A DNA stretch of 64,000 bases from Microbotryomycetes sp. JL201. Lineage: Eukaryota; Basidiomycota; Microbotryomycetes. How positions within the stretch are numbered: position 1 is the stretch's first letter; each line of letters starts with the position of its first letter. The stretch is taken from NCBI GenBank assembly GCA_033819885.1, contig JAQYUZ010000002.1, positions 558,001 to 622,000 on the forward strand, read 5' to 3'. Positions 1,742 through 60,800 of this stretch are shown here, one piece after another. Both the position numbers and the translations under genes were made by a program. Under the pieces are notes generated by a model, which saw nothing but the letters and a program-made list of their open reading frames with translations, searched no databases and was not told the origin of the DNA.

Positions 1742-4090
1742 TCACAATGCAAGGCTGCCGACGCCACCCGTCACAGCCTCGACTGGGCCGTTGGCGGCAG
1801 GGGCAGCAGGCGCCGCGGCGGCGGCAGCGCTGTCGACCGACTCGACAGGATCAGACAATTTCAAGTGAGAGTCGGGATGCTGGACAGACACATTAGGGTA
1901 GTCAGCAGGCGCACTCTACGTTGTCCAGATCGCTCTGGCAGGCTCACGGGCGGAACGTAATCGCGTTGCCGCTCAATCTGCTCCGGCAGCACGCCGGACG
2001 CAGCTGCGATAAAGCCAAGATACGCCGGCGACGGATTCAAGGGACGAGTGCAAAACTCGGGGTGCGCTTGCAAGCCGGCAAAGTAAGGATGCTCTGCGTC
2101 ACCGAACAAAGCTGTCAGCCTCACAGGTTCGATACAGCTCGTGCAAAATTGTTCCTTCGGACTGACCCTTGATCTCTGCTACCTGCATTCGCTCGCCCTT
2201 CTCGTCCTTGCCCGTGAACCGCAAACCCTTGGCCTCGATCCGGTCAACGTACGCCGGATTGACCTCGTAACGATGTCGATGACGCTCCCAGATAATCTCA
2301 GAGCTACCGTACAATTGCCTGACTTTGGACCACTCCGTGTCCTTTTGAAAGATGGTCGGTCGCAGACCAAGTCGCATCGTTCCGCCGAGATGAGTCTTGG
2401 AAATCTCGGGCATGAAAATGATGACGGGCTCCTTTGCGTCTTCGACGAGCTCGGCTGATTGAGCATCCTTGATGCCGACAACATTGCGGCAGTATTCAAT
2501 CACGGCAATCTGGAAACCGAGGCAGATGCCCAGGTACGGCACCTGTTTCTCGCGTGCCCACTTGGCAGCAGCAATCATGCCTTCTGTACCTCGCAAACCG
2601 AAACCGCCAGGAACCAAGATGCCGCTCGCAGTGCAAACGGCTTGCCACGCGGCGTGGAAATCTTTTGGGTTTTCAAATTGCGCCTCTGACTCGAGATCTG
2701 ACGCTTCAACCCACGTGATGGTCAGCTTGCGACCGCATTGCATCGCAGCGTGCTCCAATGACTTGACGACCGAAGTGTACGAGTCTTGCAGCGCCGTATA
2801 TTTGCCGACAAGGACAATGCTAACCGTGTCAAACAGCCGGTCATGGCTGATCGTCAAATCCTTCCACATGGACATGAGTTTGTGACCTCGTGCAAGTCGA
2901 AGGTTGTCCGTTCTAAGGTCGGCCAGCTTGAGTCGGCGATGCAAAAAGTCGAGCATGCCTTGATCCTTGAGCAGTAGCGGCACGTGGTACAATGACGACA
3001 CATCGTGCACGGCAACAACTTGCTCCGGCGCGACGTGACAGAACATGGAGATTTTCTGCGAAATGGCCTCTGGCAAGAGATGAGGGCACCGGCAAGCAAT
3101 CTGCGAAAGACACACAGGTCAGCATGCGTCGCGTGAGCCAAAAAGCGCACGATCGCTCACAAGATCAGGTGTCAAGCCGAGGCCGCGCAAGTCACGAATG
3201 CTGGCTTGCGTCGGCTTCGTCTTGAGCTCGCCGTTGATCGAAGGCACGAGGGAAACGTGAATCAAGGCAAAGTTGTCGGCGCCGACGCGGAACTGGAACT
3301 GGCGCATCGCTTCGACGAAAGGAGCCGACTCGATGTCGCCGACCGTGCCTCCGAGCTGTGAGTTTCGCCAGTTTTGTCAATCCGAGTCGCGTCCAACCTT
3401 TACCGTGGCCGTGACTGACCTCGATAATGCACACGTCAGGGGGCATGCCCGACTCGTCGACAGGAATTTTTGCAACGCGCTCGACCCAATCCTGAATGGC
3501 ATCCGTCACGTGAGGCACGACTTGAACCGTCTTGCCGAGGTAATCTCCGCGACGCTGAGTCATCGAATGAAAGTAAGCTTTTGCGAGCTTGGCAAACGAA
3601 CAGCAAGGCGCAAATGCGCACCTCTTTCTCGATGACTTCTCTGTAAATCTTGCCTGTTGTGATATTGTTCTCGCGACTGAGGGTTACGTTCAAGTAGCGC
3701 TCGTAGTTGCCCAAGTCGAGATCGACCTCGCCTCCATCGTCGAGCACAAACACCTCGCCTGGTTCGAGTCATGCATGCTGTCAGTCTTGATGCGGCACAG
3801 TCGGCAATCGTCTGCTGCAACTGACCGTGCTCTGTGGGCGACATTGTGCCGGCATCAATGTTCATGTAAGGATCGATCTTGATGGCTGTGACATTGTACC
3901 CGAGCGTCTTGAGCAGCAATCCGGTCGACGAAGCTATCACATGTGACGCAGAACAACCGTCAGCTGTCGTACACGCGCGTCTTTTTTTCCTTGACAGGAC
4001 TTTGACCAAGACGAGGACGCGAGACTGACCGATAACGCCCTTGCCGATACCAGAGATGACACCTCCAGACACGAGAACAAATTTGGTCAT
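1742..4090 (-). CDS. URA7: CTP synthase
   Basis: Makes CTP from UTP, ATP and glutamine in the cytosol; last step of de novo pyrimidine nucleotide synthesis. ATG 4090 begins [18 protein letters not shown], the synthetase P-loop signature. After a first intron (donor just after 4030) the frame resumes with [33 protein letters not shown]. The class I glutamine amidotransferase domain is clear at 2600-2500, with the nucleophile Cys in [10 protein letters not shown], and the end reads [29 protein letters not shown] in pieces. The last intron (GTGAGC donor, CTGAC branch, CAG acceptor) leads to an Ala/Pro-rich tail ending GGVGSLAL and the stop at 1742. The gene has at least six short introns. The divergent side (4091-4443) separates it from the Sec5 3' end. 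Length and motif order are normal for the family. Confidence 0.96.
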
Positions 4091-8434: not shown

Positions 8435-11180
8435 ATGAAACGCCGCAACGTGCGTGCAAACGCGCCCGGCAAGGTGCAAATGCCCGACGACGGCGACGAT
8501 CGCCGAACGTCATCGTCTGGCCAGTCAACGGCACACGGTCACGGCAAGCACATGTCCGTGCCCCTCTTCGAGCGCAAAGTATCGACAAAGGATGGCGAGC
8601 TGGATCTCCGAGTTGACTTGGACCCCGACACGGGCAAGGCCACAGTCCGCGGCGATCCTTCAACGCCATGGCACGAGCTCGACCTCAGCGATTCCTTCTT
8701 GGCAGCTCTGCACACAGGACAGTTCGAACCCAAAAAGCCACTGTACAGCAAGCGCAGATTCTTTCTCTTGATCGGCGGCCTGCTCGGCATTGCCTTGAGC
8801 TGGTTCATGACCGAGGGCGACCCCCTCAAATCACTCGCCGACTTGGACTTGGACGCATTGACGCGTATAGACTTGCAGAACCTCGTCGCAGACTTGCCTG
8901 GCCAGTTCAACTTTAGCGAAATGCTCGCGCCAGGCCGGGAGTGGCTTACCTCAAAAAGCTCGTCCTTCGTCGTCGGAAGAGAGGCGGCAGAGCGCGGGTT
9001 GTCAAAGAAGCACGCCGCAGTCATCGTCCCGGGCATCATTTCGTCTGGCCTAGAGTCATGGTCAACCGCGCCTGACGCCGCACAATTCTTTCGCAAGCGC
9101 ATCTGGGCCGGTGTACCCATGATTAGAGCAGTCTTGACGGCGAAAGATGCTTGGGTCAAGACGCTCAGCTTGGACGAGTACACCGGCCTCGACCCGGATG
9201 GCTACAAAGTCAGGTCTGCCCAAGGCTTGGATGCCGCCACCGCTTTCGTGCCGGGCTATTGGATCTGGCAAAAGGTCATAGAGAATCTGAGTGTGCTCGA
9301 CTATGACTATAACGACATGCATCTGTTCTCGTATGACTGGCGCCTCGCTTTCTACAATCTCGAGGTTCGCGACAAGTACTTTTCCAGGCTCAAGGCGCAG
9401 ATCGAGTTCAACAAGCACGTGCTCGGCAGAAAGACTGCATTACTCTCTCACAGCATGGGATCAGTCGTCGTTTTGGTGAGTAGGGCTCACATCGGAGCCG
9501 AGGAACACGCCACAAAGTCACTTCAACCTCGAGAATTGTTGCTAATCATGCCCCGGAAACTCAGTGGTTCTTCAAATGGGCTGAGAACCCGCAATACGGT
9601 CGCGGCGGATCCAACTGGGTCGAGACGCACATTGCAGACTGGGCGAGTGAGAATGTCGACCTCAGGAGATGCTCTGCTGACACTCGGACATTGCAGGTCA
9701 ACATTGCAGGGCGAGTACGCGAATAAGTACCACGAGCTCGATATTCTGACGTGAGTTATCCCCGCAGAACTTTGTTTGGCGTGCCAAAGGCAATGGCGGC
9801 GCTCTTGTCCGGCGAGATGCGAGACACGGTCGAAATCAATGCAGCTGGCGTCTTTCTTCTTGAAAAATTCTTCTCGCGTCAGGAACGTGCAAAGCTGTTC
9901 CGCTCGTGGGCCGGTTCGGTAAGTGCTGACCATACTGTACCCTTGTGAGGATGAGGCTCACGTCGTCTGTGCACAGTCTTCGATGCTTCTGAAAGGAGGG
10001 TGAGTAGGTTCTGCTTACCATGGGGCGGGAGATTGACTTTTGCTTCCAGTAACGACGTCTGGGGCGACCATGACGGTGCGCCAGATGACCCGCCGGGTGC
10101 CAATCTGACAGCTGGCAAGCTATAGTGAGCCGGGAGTCAAACATTTCGCGTGGTCTCCTCCTGACTGGTCCACTTGCGATTGCTAGTTATTTCAAACCCG
10201 AAATCTATGGCAATGAGACGGACATCAACGCCGTGACTGCCAACCCGAACCTGACTTTGTCCGAAGCAACGGGCTACATCCTCAATCATGTCCCACCAGC
10301 ATATCAAGCAATGCTTCATTCCAATTTCTCGCTAGGCTTTGAACGAGATCCCAAAAAGATTGCGGAAAACGACAACGACCACCGCAAATGGGCTAACCCT
10401 CTCGAGACGAGGTTACCGAACGCGCCTTCCATGTCCATCTACTGCATCTATGGCGTCGGAAAAGAAACCGAGCGAGGTTACTTTTACCAACAAGGAGGAT
10501 TTGAACATGACGAGACTGTTTCAGGGCTGAACGCGACATGCGAAGACCCAGAGTGTTCGGATCAGACACCGAGGACACCTTTGGACTTGCCACTGTCGAG
10601 AAGGGTGTGGATCGACGGTTCGGTCACGTTGCCAGATTCGCATTCGCCAAAAGTCAGATCTGGCGTTGTTTTTAACGATGGAGATGGCACGGTCAGCATG
10701 CTCAGTCTAGGTGCAATGTGCGTTGCAGCGCTTCGTTGGGCTCTTTCGATACTGACCAGTCTGCTCGCTGTCCAGGTGTCAAGAAGGGTGGAAGGTGAGA
10801 CACTCTGTTTCTGTACCTCGTTCTCGAAACACGCCACTGACGTGTGTTGAATTGTCTTTCAGCGCGACTTGTACAACCCCGGCAAAAGTCGAGTCGTTAC
10901 TCATGAAATCAACCACGAGCCCCAATCTGGTGATCTTCGCGGTGGCACGACGACGAGTGACCATGTGAGATTAGTCATTCATTTCCGAAAGAGACCGTTT
11001 TGTTTCAAACCCAAACTAATCTCGTTGTGCGAACTTGATGAACAGGTTGATATTCTTGGCAACAGTGAATTACAAAGAGCCATCATTGACGTCGTTACTG
11101 GCCATGGAGACCTTGTCAAAGATCAGTATTATAGTCGAATTCGAGAAGCATCGAAAAAGATCAAATGGGACAAGAAGTGA
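8435..11180 (+). CDS. LRO1: Phospholipid:diacylglycerol acyltransferase (PDAT, Lro1-like)
   Basis: Transfers the sn-2 acyl chain of a phospholipid to diacylglycerol, giving triacylglycerol; an ER-membrane, lumen-facing LCAT-family enzyme. The model has ten exons and 722 aa: 8435-9475, 9565-9642, 9697-9710, 9768-9918, 9977-9999, 10050-10124, 10187-10717, 10776-10794, 10863-10964, 11046-11180. One N-terminal membrane anchor lies at about residues 108-124 (RFFLLIGGLLGIALSWF) after a basic/acidic cytosolic tail. Family blocks in order: VIVPGIISSGLESW (lid region), YDWRLAFYNLE, the nucleophile elbow LSHSMGSVVV (Ser), VNIAGTLFGVPKAM, a catalytic-Asp region around NDGDGTVS, and HVDILGN with the catalytic His near the C-terminus. 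Odd points: the introns at 9643-9696 and 9711-9767 are GC-AG with identical GCGAGT donors, and they bracket a 14-nt exon. Exons of 23 and 19 nt follow. All phases close, and the conserved VNIAGT block spans the two GC-AG junctions. It lies near DGAT2. Confidence 0.95.
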
Positions 11181-11346
11181 AGAGTTTTGTTAGAATATCC
11201 ATACACGGCACGCGTCGAGTGTACAAAGGTAGTCGGAAAACAACATGTTGCAACACAGCGCACGGGAAAACAGATTCGACGACATGCAAGCGAGAAGGCG
11301 CACACATACACAGGTAGAAACGAAGAGCGCACGGGTGCAAGCGCGT

Positions 11347-18927: not shown

Positions 18928-20375
18928 TCAATCACGTCGAGGGATGGAGTCGACTAGCGGTTCAGCAAAGGCAGATACAACCTGTTCGTACACCCAGTAC
19001 ATTGTTATAGCGTTTGGCACAACTCGCAAGAGGTGTGGACTGAGACCACCGTACAAGGCCCGCCAGCCTTCGTCGGCCAAGACGAGCTTGAACGATTGAA
19101 CGAGCGACGTGTATTTTGGGCTTTGTCCTGGCGGTGCGGGCTGTCGCAATCGAGTTCGGATGACCTGCAGAGAACGACATGGGGTCAGAATGTCGGGAAT
19201 TGGCAAGCGAGAAAACTGAGACTCTTACCTCGTGAGGATACGTAATGATGGTCGCCACCAGTTTAGCGGCGCCTGCGGCGGCACTAACGCGCCAGCCATT
19301 CTGTTCTTCAGTTCTTCGACCATAGTTTGCCATGGACTTGAACCTCTCATACAAAGTCCATTGGATTGTGCCTTCTGTGACGCCTAGCAAGCTTGCCGAC
19401 AAGCCTTTGTAGAAACCTCGCACGCCATCGGATCTGAAGATGGCAATCGTCGTCGAATACGAAGTCGGCCTGTGGTGTAATGGCAGCGGCGGAGACGTCA
19501 TCGATCTGAACGAATGAGAGAACGTCGCCGACGTTTGCTTCGGTGGCGAAGGCAAGGGCCGTTGCGTTGAAGACGGCGTTGTCGCTTTTGAGGACGACGC
19601 CCTTTGCTGTTGTTGCAGCTGCATGACTGTTTTGACGACCCAGATCGGGTTCGTGGCGGCGGCTGTGATGACTCCGGCGGTGGCGGCCGCCGACAGGTGT
19701 ACGAGCGAGTTCTCCTGGCCGTCATTGAAGTAGTCGGCGTACACTTGTTTGCCATTTCCATATACGAAGAAATTGATGGACCTGTGCATACCGAACAAAG
19801 TGAGTCTTAAGCGATAATTCGCCAATATGAGCTCCAAGGTAGCGCTCACCGCCCTGGCACCACGCCGACGAGTGTCGGTCCGAGGCCCTTGAACAGCGCG
19901 GTCGGTCCTTCGTACCGGTATACGTCCCTGTTGTGCTTTGCGTTGTCAGCACGAGTGCATACATTGAGAGCGAAAATGATTGACTTGCCGGAGGATTGCA
20001 CCTGTGTCGACGAATGCGGCGACGAGGGCTCTGATTGGATTCCTTGCATGACTTGTTGACTGTTTTGCCGCTGCTGCTGAGCTCGCGTGGCTGTACATGC
20101 TCGATTGCAACCGAGTCTTGACCAGATCAAACGGCGCAGTGACGACAGAGCCACACATGCCGCCCAGCCTGTGCATTCAAGCCTGGGTCAGTGCTCTTCG
20201 CGTACATACAAGCGATTCCGCGGTCACAGACTGACCCGCCGGCGACGAGGTGGACGGCAGGCGGGGGCCGTATGCGACGGGGCTCGAGCGCGGCCGTCGT
20301 CTGCGTTGCAGCGTCCTCTGCCGTCGAGAGAGGCACGCTCGCAGCTGCCGTGGCATCTTGCACACTGCCAGGCAT
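18928..20375 (-). CDS. RIM2: Mitochondrial carrier, pyrimidine-nucleotide type (Rim2-like)
   Basis: Inner mitochondrial membrane solute carrier (SLC25), probably pyrimidine nucleotide transport. Three repeats are seen with their signatures: PFDLVKTRLQS (repeat 1), PIWVVKTVMQL (repeat 2) and, across an intron, YPHEV/IRTRLRQP (repeat 3). ATG 20375 MPGSVQDATAAASVPLSTAE leads to PPPAVHLVAGG, which an intron joins to LGGMCGSVVTAPFDLVKTR. The gap between the first and second repeat has an Ala/Ser-rich insert and the block YRYEGPTALFKGLGPTLVGV. A second long Ser/Thr/Pro insert follows PIWVVK (residues translated near 19600-19470). The long insert and the W in PIWVVK fit Rim2/SLC25A33-36 rather than other carriers. 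The C-terminus ends EPLVDSIPRRD. About 220 bp separate it from divergent CCT theta. Confidence 0.85.
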
Positions 20376-47676: not shown

Positions 47677-50600
47677 ATGAACCCTTACGACATGCATGCA
47701 TACGGCCAGGCGGCATGCGCAAATTCTGCTGCCGCTCAATCTTATCCTGCCTACGCTGAAAGAAGTGGCGGAGACAGCGGCCACAACGGTGCGGCACGTC
47801 CAGCACGAAAGGGCAGGCCCGTCATTAAAGACAGTGAGGATGAAGACGAAGACGCAGAAGGCGAGGTAGATCAGCCGTACACTGCGCCTGTCGGTGACGT
47901 TCCGATGGATGGTCCGCCAAAGGCAGAGGACGACGAGTTCAAGATTGAACCTCCAAAGCTCGTAGCGACGTTGACAAAATCTGGTCGCAAAACACTGCGT
48001 CCTGCAATCTACGACGGAGATTCGTCAGACGAGGATGACGAGCCGGTCAGACCTGCGAAATCTCTACGGAGAGGGCGAAACAGGTCGGGATACGGCGATG
48101 GCAACGGATTCGTCGAGCCTGACGACGAGTTCAACGAGGACGATCTCGAAGAGGATGACCAAGGCGAATACGGCCTCGATCGCAAGACTCGTCTGCAGCG
48201 TGCGGCTGCAGCCCGCAGAGCCAAGAACGAAGCAGAAGCCGCTAGGAGCCATAGGCGTCCAGCACGCTCAACCCGCAACTCTGCAAGAAACGATCCGTCT
48301 TTCGAGGCCGATGAGAGTCCCGCAGAGACGACTGAAGACGAAGTCGACTTGGAGATTTCGTCCGACGACAGCTTGAAGCCGCCTGCACCTCGCAAGTTGC
48401 GAGAAAAACCCAAGATTGATTATTACGCTATTCCGCCCGTCGATGCACTGACGAACAACAAGTCGAAGAAGAAGAAGCGTGGCGATGACCCATTTGCTGG
48501 TTTGCCTCACAACCTGACTGGCGCGCAATGGGCGGCCTTGTACCCCGACAAAGGCAACAATGGGGATTCGGTAAGAGCTTCGCCTTGCGACTGTCAGCAA
48601 AGGCTGAAATGCACGATGCCCCGCAGTCCTCATCGGATGATGACGCTCCCGGCTTTTCGACGCCTCGCAAAGGCGGAGGCGGCATGTTTTCGTCAAACGC
48701 GGCGCTTGCCGGTCTCGGTGCAGGAGGTATGTTTGCTGGCGGCGCTGGACTTGATCTCGGCGCTCCGAGCAACTTGGGCAAAGTTGGAGGGTCCACCAGT
48801 AAGTTTTCGCGTGTCATGGAAACAAACGCTCAAAGTTGACGCCGTTCTTTCTTTCAGGTCTCGCAGACACGGATCCCCTAGGGGTCTCGCAAGTCTCATT
48901 CGACTCTGTCGGTGGCCTTGGTTCGCACATTCAGCAACTGAAGGAAATGGTATCCCTTCCGCTGCTGTACCCGGAAGTTTTTGAGCGCTTCAACATGAGT
49001 CCTCCGCGTGGTGTCTTGTTCCACGGTCCACCTGGAACTGGGAAAACCCTTCTAGCCCGCGCTCTCGCTGCTAGCTGCAGCACAGACGGTCGAAAAATCG
49101 GTAAAGCAGATCGCCCTTCCTTGACGGGTGTCGTTGCTGAATGTTGTTGCTCTGCTCAGCATTCTTCATGCGCAAGGGAGCAGATTGCTTATCTAAATGG
49201 GTCGGTGAGGCTGAGCGCCAGCTGAGGTTGTTGTTCGAAGAGGCAAAAAAGTGTCAGCCGAGCATCATCTTTTTTGATGAGATCGACGGTGCGTGCTGGA
49301 AGCCTGTGGTCAATCTCAGGCACACTGATCATTGGCTGTTTCAGGACTGGCACCTGTTCGAAGTAGCAAGCAGGAGCAAATTCACGCATCCATCGTGTCG
49401 ACCTTGCTCGCTTTGATGGACGGCATGGACGGACGAGGCAAGTCAACTCTGAACGATGCCGACCATCCGTTACTGACTACGGCATTTTGCTCAGGCCAAG
49501 TCATCGTCATTGGTGCCACAAACAGACCCGATGCAATCGACCCGGCGCTGAGAAGGCCAGGCCGCTTCGACCGCGAGTTCTACTTTCCTCTGCCAAATAT
49601 TGAAGGCCGACGCAAGATCATCGACATCCACACCAAAGGATGGAACCCGCCTTTGGAGGACGCCTTCAAAGACGAGTTGGCGCATTTGACAAAGGGCTAC
49701 GGTGGCGCAGACTTGCGAGCCTTGTGCACAGAAGCAGCCTTGAACGCGGTTCAAAGAACCTTCCCGCAAATTTACAAGACAAACGACCGGTTGTTGATAA
49801 AGCCCGAGAAGATTGAGGTTACAGCGCGAGATTTCATCATTTCTCAGAAGAGTGAGTTATGAGACGGCTGACAACGATGACATGTACTCAACATCCGTCG
49901 AGCAGATCTTATCCCATCAACCGCTCGTGCGACATCATCTCTCGCGGCGCCTCTGCCTGTTCAGCTCGAGCCGCTCCTCTCCGATAGCCTCGAGACCGCG
50001 AAGCAAGTCCTCGCAAAGGTGCTACCAGAAGTCAAAAAGGTCAACGTGCTGGAAGACGCCGAATGGGAAGACGATGGAGGCGGATTCGAAAAGGAAAAGA
50101 TGATGCAAGGTAGGGTTAAGGGCGCGATGCCGCTCCCCGCGCCCGAGCTGAACCGTCATCTTGTGCAGCTTTCGAGACGCTGCGCGTGTTCAGGCCGCGT
50201 CTACTCATTCACGGCGCAGTCGGTATGGGTCAGGGCTACGTCGGGTCTGCCGTCTTGCACCACCTTGAAGGTTTCCACGTTCAACCGCTCGATCTCGCCA
50301 CACTCGTTGCCGACTCGACTCGCACAATGGAAGCGGCCTGCGTTCAGCTCTTTGTCGAAGCTAAACGACACAAGCCGTCGATCTTGTTCATCCCCTCGCT
50401 CATCACATGGTGCCACAGCGTCGGCGAGTCAGTCAAATCGACCATCAAGGGCTTGCTCGATGGCCTGGATCCATCAGATCCAATCCTACTCCTCGCTGTT
50501 GTTGACGGTCCGCTATCAGAAGTGCCTGGAGACGTGCGATCTTGGTTCGGATTTGTCAAAGGCAACCGCGTCGCTATCGGGCACCCGATTGCTGTGCGTC

Positions 50601-57878: not shown

Positions 57879-60800
57879 CTACAACTCTTCTCCAGGCTCA
57901 ACAAAATCTTTGTCCAAATCGTTGACGGCGCCGTGGCACAGTGGACAACTGCTCGCCAGCAACTCGTCGAGAGCGCGCCTGAGCTCCTGCTGCTCATGCG
58001 CGGCCTGTCGCGCGCGGCTGCTCAACTCGGCACCATCCGATACATCCTCGCGCTTAAGTGCCGAAGTACCATTCCACCCAGCGAAACGGCCGGCGCTTGC
58101 ACCAATCAACCTGTTGGTCGGAATCGCGCCGCCAATGACGCCAAGTAGAGCGTCCGGCAAGACCAATTTGCGTAGCTGATCCAACCCTTGCACAGACGCT
58201 TGGGCGAGCTTGAGCGTCTGATCTTCGACGACATTGCGAGTCCGCGTTCCGTTTGAAGCCTTGCTTGCGCTGTGGCTCGTCGAAGCGAGTCGATTTTGGA
58301 GATCGAGCATGCGTCGAAGAGCGACAGGAGACAATTGTTTAGTCACCTGGTGCAGCAGACTCTGTCAGCTCTGACGAACAACCCGTCCGTTAATACACGC
58401 GCTACTGACCTCATTGATCAAGCAATCAGCATGGAACAAATGTTGACAAGGAAAGACGTAGAACTGCCTCGTCAGCAGTTGCAGTGTGCAACTTGCGCAC
58501 TTGTCGTTGGCATCGACGACCACGAACCGGTTGCGCAAGTCTGCGATGTCTCTCTTGATCTCTTCGGCGCTTTGAGTTGCGTCGTCCATTTCTTTCTTGA
58601 GTCTGTCGATATGTGACGAGTAATCTTCGAGTGCGTTGCAGATCTCCTCCTTGAAGTCATCGACGACGACAAAGTCGGGGAAGAAGGGCAAGACGTCCTC
58701 GATTTTGACAAGATCGGTCGACTCAAGAAATCGCATAGCACTGCGTCGAATGAAACGTTGTCAGCTGCATACTCCTGACATCTGCTTGGCCTCTGCCAAC
58801 GCACGCTCTGATGTCGCTGTTCTGTCCCACGACGTAGCGAGCAATCTTGAGCCACAGCTTCTTCTTGAGAATGTCGTCATCTTCTGGTTTGTCTGCGCTC
58901 ATCTTTGCCAATTCAAGGTCGCCGTGATCGAGGGCGAGATCGACGCTTGACTCGAACAAACCCATCTTGGAGTAGATCAACACGCACGCCTGGACGCATT
59001 TGTTGGCCCGGCAGATTCTCAATGCGTAGTCAAGATCGTAGTACGGGTCACCCGTGACCGGATTGCTCGGACATGTCGAAAGAAAATGCAAGAAGTCGGC
59101 CTCGTTGCCGTGCGAGTTCGTAGCGAACAGCGTGATGATGGCGTTATGTACAGAAGTGTCTGTGTTCTGAAGCTGCATGATGGAGTACTGAAGGAATCGG
59201 ATGGCATGGTCGACCTTGGGTCGAGCATCCTTTGTGAACAGCCGTCTTCGAGGTGGGCACAAGGCCGGAATCAACTGGCGCACATCGAGTGTCGGCTGTC
59301 GCATAAAAGCATCGACACTATCGGCAGGGGCGTTGTCATACACAGTTGGAGCGTATCGATAGTAGTACTCGAGCTCGTCCTGAGAATGTTGGTAAGCGAG
59401 CGCTCACCTCGACACTCGTTCGTGCCGGCTACTCACTTGTTTGCTCAAAGCTTCGAGCACCTTGTACCAGTTCTCTTCGGATATCCAGTGCTCGATAACA
59501 CGCTCAATGTCCCCAACGAGGTTTGCATAGTACAACATAATCTCGTCTCGACCGTGTTGCGCCAGCAGATCAAAAACTGTCCGCTCGTCCAGGTTTTGCT
59601 GGCCAACGACATGTGAGCTAGGCTCTGATCGATGAGGAGCTCCACTCACTTTATACGTAACGAGAAACTGCCTGAGCTCATCGTCGATGAGCGTCTTCTC
59701 GACGGCCAAGTTCGTGGCGTTCTCGGTCGTTCGCTCAGCTGCAGCTGCGTCTTCTAATTGTGCAAGTTTTGAAAGGTAAATCTCGACGAGCCATGTAGCA
59801 AGCATCATGCGCTGAGTGATGTCCTGTGAAGAAAAGGCCGGTAAGTAACCACATGAAAGAAGCTTTAAGCTGACTTGCAGTCTTTTTCAGACGTTCGAGC
59901 TTGGCCACAAGGTAATATCTGAGTGCATCACGCTCGTTCTTGTCAACAAATTTGAGCACGACATCTTCAAAGTTTCTTGACGATTGCGCAAACGCTTGAG
60001 CCGACTGAATGTAACGCCCGCTGGCAAAGTAAGACTCGGCCTCCGCTGCAAGCACCGTTTCTCTTTGGCGCGCGCTCTATCACGCGCCCCGTTCATCAGT
60101 ATATTTCGACGGTCGGATAGTCGATGCAGCGTGACGTACCTTTGCATACTTGTGTGCCAGCTCCCAATTGGACCTGCTCAGATGCGTCTTCCACACGTTC
60201 CTGTCCTCGTCTTTGATGACCAGCTCAAAGATTGATTGGTCGGTATACATCCAGCAGGTCCTTCGGATTGGATCCGTTGCGAGCTTCCTGGGCGTAACGT
60301 CTGTAGGCTGAGAGTTTGATCCGGTCTCAGCTCCGCGCTCAGGGTGCACTGCCTCGCCAACTCACAAGGTCCAGCGGCTCTTCGTATACGACCTTGTCGC
60401 TCATCAATTCAAGCACACGCAATTTATCATTGTACAGCAGCACAATGTGCCACTCTGTTAAGGCCATCGAAATGGGCGTCAACGGACCAGCGGAATTGGT
60501 CGGCTCTGGCGGGTACGGTACGAGGGAAGCAGACTCGATGACTCCGTCTCCAGGAGTGTAGGAGTCCGATTTGGACGTCGGTAGAACTAGGGAGCCGTGA
60601 TAGATTCCGGGACCGGTCAGCCATGCGACGCTGGATGGTAAGTTGAGGGACGGCATGCTCGGCCTAGAGTCGCTTCGCTGAGTGGCGAAAAAGTGGAGCT
60701 CGGAAGGAGCCATATCTCCAGGTAGATCGAGTGTTTCTGTGAAGGTCACTCAGCCATGGTGCTCGTCTCATTCCATTTGGAGTAGCAAGGCCTCACTTGG

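Follow-up and report, generated by a model that had tools for sequence, protein, structure and literature searches.

A PDAT-like gene with two predicted GC-AG introns in a row, separated by an exon of 14 nt

We propose that a gene of the LCAT family, which is probably a PDAT, contains two consecutive short U2-type introns with GC donors, on either side of an exon of just 14 nt. We consider it very probable that this gene is spliced constitutively and that the pair of GC introns has no special role. The gene lies in the window, by which we mean the whole stretch of 64,000 nt that was analysed (positions 558001-622000 of contig C12, in a genome of 17.15 Mb and 92 contigs). Its features are listed in Table 1.

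Table 1. The PDAT-like gene, its splice sites, and the other predicted GC-AG introns of the window (window coordinates)
Feature	Positions	Strand	Description
LCAT-family gene, probably PDAT	8435..11181	+	complete from start codon (ATG) to stop; 10 exons and 9 introns; 722 amino acids
Exon 2	9565..9642	+	78 nt; 3' end encodes ...HIADW
Intron 2	9643..9696	+	54 nt, GC-AG: GCGAGT ... CTGAC ... ATTGCAG
14-nt exon	9697..9710	+	GTCAACATTGCAGG; codes for VNIA plus two bases of the Gly codon that follows
Intron 3	9711..9767	+	57 nt, GC-AG: GCGAGT ... CTGAC ... CCCGCAG
Exon 4	9768..9918	+	151 nt; starts with the base that completes this Gly codon and continues as TLFGVPKAMAALLSGEMRDT
Second tiny exon	9977..9999	+	23 nt
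Third tiny exon	10776..10794	+	19 nt
GTCGAG	9619..9624	+	very weak frame-keeping GT donor; use drops VETHIADW
GTGAGA	9647..9652	+	overlapping GT donor, 4 nt 3' of the GC donor of intron 2; frame-shifting if used
GTCGAC	9655..9660	+	very weak frame-keeping GT donor; use adds ASEN
GTACGC	9715..9720	+	overlapping GT donor, 4 nt 3' of the GC donor of intron 3; frame-shifting if used
Further predicted GC-AG intron	49438..49494	+	AAA ATPase gene, inside Pfam match
Further predicted GC-AG intron	19928..19988	-	mitochondrial carrier gene, inside Pfam match
Further predicted GC-AG intron	59824..59878	-	Vps18-like gene (presumed name), no Pfam match

The splice sites and their signals

All nine introns of the gene are short (50-89 nt). 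Seven of the nine donors are GT, and those of introns 2 and 3 are GC. The model protein matches the LCAT domain (PF02450) with 255.9 bits, where the Pfam cut-off is 21, so the gene belongs to the LCAT family. The finer name is probable: we took PDAT from the preliminary description of this sequence, and the protein presumably resembles fungal PDAT. PDATs have an N-terminal membrane segment and a lipase-type serine motif, and by eye, the model protein shows RFFLLIGGLLGIALSWF and SHSMGS.

The preliminary description placed the two introns and the 14-nt exon exactly, including both GCGAGT donors, both GCAG acceptors, and the CTGAC within each intron. That two GC-AG introns flank a 14-nt exon here is supported by the frame and by the LCAT score. 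We enumerated 923 combinations of zero, one, or two introns, drawn from 20 GT or GC donors (9600-9760) and 12 AG acceptors (9640-9800), with intron lengths limited to 38-160 nt, and required the frame to be open through SGEMRDT. This left 226 combinations. VNIAGTLFG is encoded by seven of these, each of which uses the GC donor at 9711. Just one, in which both GC introns are removed, joins HIADW to VNIAGTLFG (HIADWVNIAGTLFG). We scored three alternatives against the LCAT domain, and they reached 246.6 bits (donor at 9655), 240.2 bits (donor at 9619), and 234.8 bits (retention of intron 2). Also, an LCAT sequence from the PDB (4x96, which we take to be human LCAT) aligns without gaps from NWVETHIADW through VNIAGTLFG to SGEM; the stretch around the splice sites is weak by itself (13.3 bits, i-Evalue 0.15), and the E-value for the whole sequence is 6.5e-7. 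Given the enumeration, the LCAT scores, and this alignment, both GC-AG introns together are the best reading of the site. Each intron starts with GC and ends with AG, and its removal restores the conserved frame, which would place both in the U2-type GC-AG class; each, taken singly, exceeds chance.

A gene finder that is blind to protein similarity read the site differently. With GC donors allowed, it kept intron 1 and began introns at the GT sites 9647 and 9715, which leaves an exon of 5 nt between them, and its model protein lacks both WFFKW...HIADW and VNIAG. We also note that ATTGCAG occurs three times within 79 nt (9631-9709): in exon 2 (in the codons for HIAD), as the acceptor of intron 2, and once more within the 14-nt exon, which therefore holds a second acceptor 13 nt 3' of the one used.

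GC-AG introns typically have a strong donor consensus outside the dinucleotide. The two GC donors of this gene do (4.18 and 4.76 nats, against a mean of 2.63 nats for GT donors), and among the predictions of the gene finder, the flanking consensus averages 3.57 nats for GC donors and 2.63 nats for GT donors. Both introns contain CTGAC, which is the learned branch-site consensus, and have CAG acceptors, as expected for the U2 type. Predicted pairing with U1 is -6.5 and -9.8 kcal/mol for the two GC donors, as compared to -4.8 and -3.2 kcal/mol for the GT sites shifted by 4 nt. By class, the mean predicted pairing is weaker for GC donors (-4.7 kcal/mol) than for GT donors (-6.1 kcal/mol), but both GC donors of this gene exceed the GT mean.

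The single candidate that we found for the U1 snRNA (G000:C7:112439-112616) scores 31.1 bits against the Rfam family, whose cut-off is 69.5, so its identification rests also on its ATACTTACC start and on a Sm-like site, AATATTTGG, that we found by eye. The 5' end ATACTTACC is the usual one, so a special U1 is unnecessary. A DNA search of the genome found no second U1 copy (the counts from this tool are lower bounds), and with that and the usual 5' end of the candidate, we rejected a variant U1 snRNA.

From the sequence, we infer the following splicing mechanism. Each donor would fit the consensus of this genome (GG/GCGAGT) apart from +2 and would pair with the usual 5' end of U1 despite the mismatch at that position. 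A consensus CTGAC branch site and then a CAG acceptor would complete each intron of 54 or 57 nt, and the spliceosome would remove each intron separately, by intron definition. Ordinary intron definition should suffice because the introns are short and have full donor, branch, and acceptor signals. If the introns are removed separately, then the size of the middle exon is irrelevant. No regulation would be involved, and the pair of GC donors would be a coincidence: two members of a class with 2-4% of the introns, in an intron-rich genome.

GC-AG introns, tiny exons, and donors across the genome

To estimate rates, we used a gene finder (a small hidden Markov model) that was trained on the window and on 200 kb of contig C1 (100001-300000), or 264 kb in total. 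Its accuracy is unmeasured, and its ab initio counts of micro-exons may include false exons. With GT donors only, it predicted 108 genes with 469 introns and 372 internal exons in the 264 kb. We then gave all 15 non-GT donor dinucleotides an equal prior. With a prior of 0.001, it predicted 470 GT, 3 GC, and 0 other donors (473 introns); with 0.005, 469 GT, 8 GC, and 0 other donors (477 introns); and with 0.02, 482 GT and 19 GC donors, with 15 for the other 14 dinucleotides together (516 introns). If only GT and GC were allowed, GC donors made up 18 of 496 predicted introns (3.6%), and at the prior of 0.005 they made up 8 of 477 (1.7%).

Ten of the 18 predicted GC junctions were scanned, and seven of these lie within Pfam matches (Mito_carr, AAA, DnaJ, Saf4_Yju2, DSHCT, DEAD, and PH). 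The other three lie outside Pfam matches: the Vps18-like fragment hit no Pfam family, and the matches in the Rpn10-like fragment and the TCP1-like fragment stop short of the junction. At these ten junctions, prediction with GT donors only gave no gene in three cases, and elsewhere it retained the intron, added residues, or altered the protein nearby. Together, the gene-finder calls and the junctions backed by Pfam make GC-AG introns a normal minority here, at about 1.7-3.6%. For comparison, PMC7072748 (its Table 1) gives 1.009% of introns for fungi, and PMC11590231 reports 1.85% for Ganoderma lingzhi, with 194 genes that have two or more non-canonical pairs. The predicted rate here is at or above the fungal mean and near the value for G. 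lingzhi.

The GCGAGT hexamer that introns 2 and 3 share is unremarkable: it accounts for 3 of the 19 GC donors predicted, and among GT donors, GTGAGT is the most frequent, with 75 of 469. Genome-wide, GCGAGT followed by CTGAC and CAG has 641 matches, as compared to 490 in the reversed control, and the same pattern with the branch motif reversed has 352 matches, as compared to 505 in its own reversed control. These counts, in which a single donor may match more than once, are too noisy to give a rate.

Tiny exons are not rare either. In the predictions for the 264 kb, 20 of the 372 internal exons measure at most 25 nt, and the PDAT-like gene has three. If donor types are independent, then the genome should contain 6.8 exons that lie between two GC donors at a GC rate of 1.7%, or 31.8 at 3.6%; for exons of up to 25 nt, the expectation is 0.37 to 1.71 per genome. 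As chance alone should give several exons between two GC donors per genome, one case is unusual for a single gene and expected for a genome. The genes predicted in the 264 kb contain no adjacent GC pair, and the PDAT-like gene is no exception, because the gene finder misses our reading of it. Across the genome, the pattern GCGAGT ... GCAG ... GCGAGT, which would enclose a short exon, shows no enrichment (30 matches versus 73 in the reversed control). We also rejected a preference of GC donors for micro-exons, on a small sample: of the internal exons that adjoin GC introns, none of the 17 on the upstream side and none of the 14 on the downstream side is 25 nt or shorter, versus 19 of 383 and 19 of 386 for GT introns. 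With GC-AG introns as a regular minority class here, we view the double arrangement as close to ordinary.

In 94 of the 478 GT introns predicted, donor position +3 is C, a letter that is rare there in most eukaryotes. Across the genome, GTCAGT and GTGAGT are about equally common: in combination with CTGAC and CAG, we found 1954 matches for GTCAGT (408 reversed) and 1527 for GTGAGT (210 reversed). Two GTCAGT junctions are inside the matches to the N-terminal domain of CTP synthase in a CTP synthase-like gene (window 1742-4090, minus strand), and a Sec63-like gene likewise has GTCAGT at a junction within its DnaJ match. Separately, the genome has a U6 snRNA gene (G000:C63:52479-52661; 48.5 bits, above the cut-off) with a 67-nt GT-AG intron directly after ACAGAGAA, adjoining ACAGAGA. 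Introns in U6 occur in other yeasts. Our literature search returned nothing relevant on GTNNGT donors in fungi and nothing on a U6 intron of this kind. The +3 C donors and the U6 intron tell more about splicing in this genome than the PDAT site does.

These results matter for annotation. Gene finders that accept only GT would break the PDAT-like gene (ours failed even with 2% GC) and would misread a few percent of the introns in this genome.

Other explanations of the site

The preliminary description stated that no GT donor keeps VNIAGT in frame. This is correct for intron 3, where none of the GT sites shares the phase of the acceptor at 9767, but not for intron 2: GTCGAC (9655) and GTCGAG (9619) preserve the frame of VNIAGT, as does retention. 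So, only intron 3 might be a real GC-AG intron, and intron 2 might be retained or be spliced from one of these GT donors. The length of intron 2 (54 nt) is a multiple of three and it has no in-frame stop, so that relative to removal of both introns, retention adds 18 residues to the protein, the donor at 9655 adds 4, and the donor at 9619 removes 8. (Intron 3, if kept, introduces an in-frame stop.) However, the two GT donors are very poor (-4.16 nats at 9655 and -5.97 nats at 9619, versus 4.18 nats for the GC donor at 9643), the LCAT score drops by 21.1 bits with retention, by 9.3 bits with 9655, and by 15.7 bits with 9619, and each change would insert into or delete residues that the PDB LCAT aligns without gaps. 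We think that this explanation is very improbable. We give almost no credence to a joint origin of introns 2 and 3, by tandem duplication or as introner-like insertions. The identical donor hexamers and the three copies of ATTGCAG would fit with this, but the local alignment score between the two introns is just 10, versus a mean of 11.0 (sd 2.1) after shuffling, and the 125-nt stretch has no second copy in the genome. The best scores of the two introns against 496 sample introns (overlapping predictions at the PDAT site itself were left out) are 23 and 20, and the shuffled best scores are 18 and 22. As the genome search and the shuffle comparison found no near-identical intron copies, we rejected introner-like elements.

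The preliminary description also suggested that the arrangement calls for exon definition by other signals or for regulated skipping. We did not find support for this: GC donors are 1.7-3.6% of introns, tiny exons are not rare, the paired GCGAGT pattern is not enriched, and skipping the 14-nt exon shifts the frame, so that the protein ends after 404 residues. A related proposal is regulated unproductive splicing, in which deliberately weak GC donors would compete with GTGAGA at 9647 and GTACGC at 9715, and shifted donors or skipping would shift the frame, lead to nonsense-mediated decay, and so tune the level of the enzyme. Both introns do have a GT 4 nt downstream of the donor, the five shifted or skipped forms that we computed all end after 404-435 residues, and the gene finder favoured the shifted GT sites (given its donor scores and a 2% prior for GC). 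According to PMC2490688, alternatively spliced genes in human, nematode, and Arabidopsis show an enrichment of GC donors, which would also fit. However, every GCNNGT donor has a GT at +5/+6 built in, and U1 is predicted to pair better with the GC sites than with the shifted GT sites (-6.5 versus -4.8 and -9.8 versus -3.2 kcal/mol). Because skipping or the use of either shifted GT ends the protein after 404-435 residues, such forms could only be unproductive. Overall, regulated splicing seems quite unlikely to us. A bolder speculation, which we regard as unlikely, is that donor recognition in this lineage has become lax at +2 and +3 and depends on -1 and on +4 to +6, with C a mainstream letter at +3 and GC donors at 2-4%, and that the PDAT-like gene is an off switch that is sensitive to U1 and U6. 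If so, small changes in dependence on U1 or U6 would act via the overlapping GC and GT donors, and decay of the mis-spliced mRNA would turn off an oil-forming enzyme. If the overlapping donors are used, then the site would also be a simple test of the tolerance of fungi for GC donors. We prefer constitutive splicing of two ordinary GC-AG introns.

Relation to known systems

The pair in the PDAT-like gene would be a further case of the known class of U2-type GC-AG introns (PMC7072748, PMC11590231). These have a GC donor, an ordinary branch site, and an AG acceptor, and several can occur in one gene. The PDAT-like gene differs in that two of them are consecutive, around a 14-nt exon. We did not find two consecutive GC-AG introns around a microexon in titles and the beginnings of abstracts, from a search that was not aimed at PDAT structures.

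Two other systems can be compared. The Xlr2 switch of Trichoderma virens (PMC11121469) also involves a fungal microexon, but its inclusion depends on glucose, while here skipping of the 14-nt exon breaks the frame. In stwintrons, which are nested introns, two splicing units also lie close together (PMC9024468). We rejected a stwintron here because the piece between introns 2 and 3 encodes part of a conserved domain, which means that neither is nested in the other.

The bglA genes of basidiomycetous yeasts also share features with the PDAT-like gene. According to PMC9142197, they have many introns, with means near 60 bp, and several microexons, and a GC-AG intron flanks microexons (intron 11 in Rhodotorula minuta and intron 5 in Hamamotoa singularis). 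Each bglA gene has a single GC-AG intron, whereas the PDAT-like gene has two in a row.
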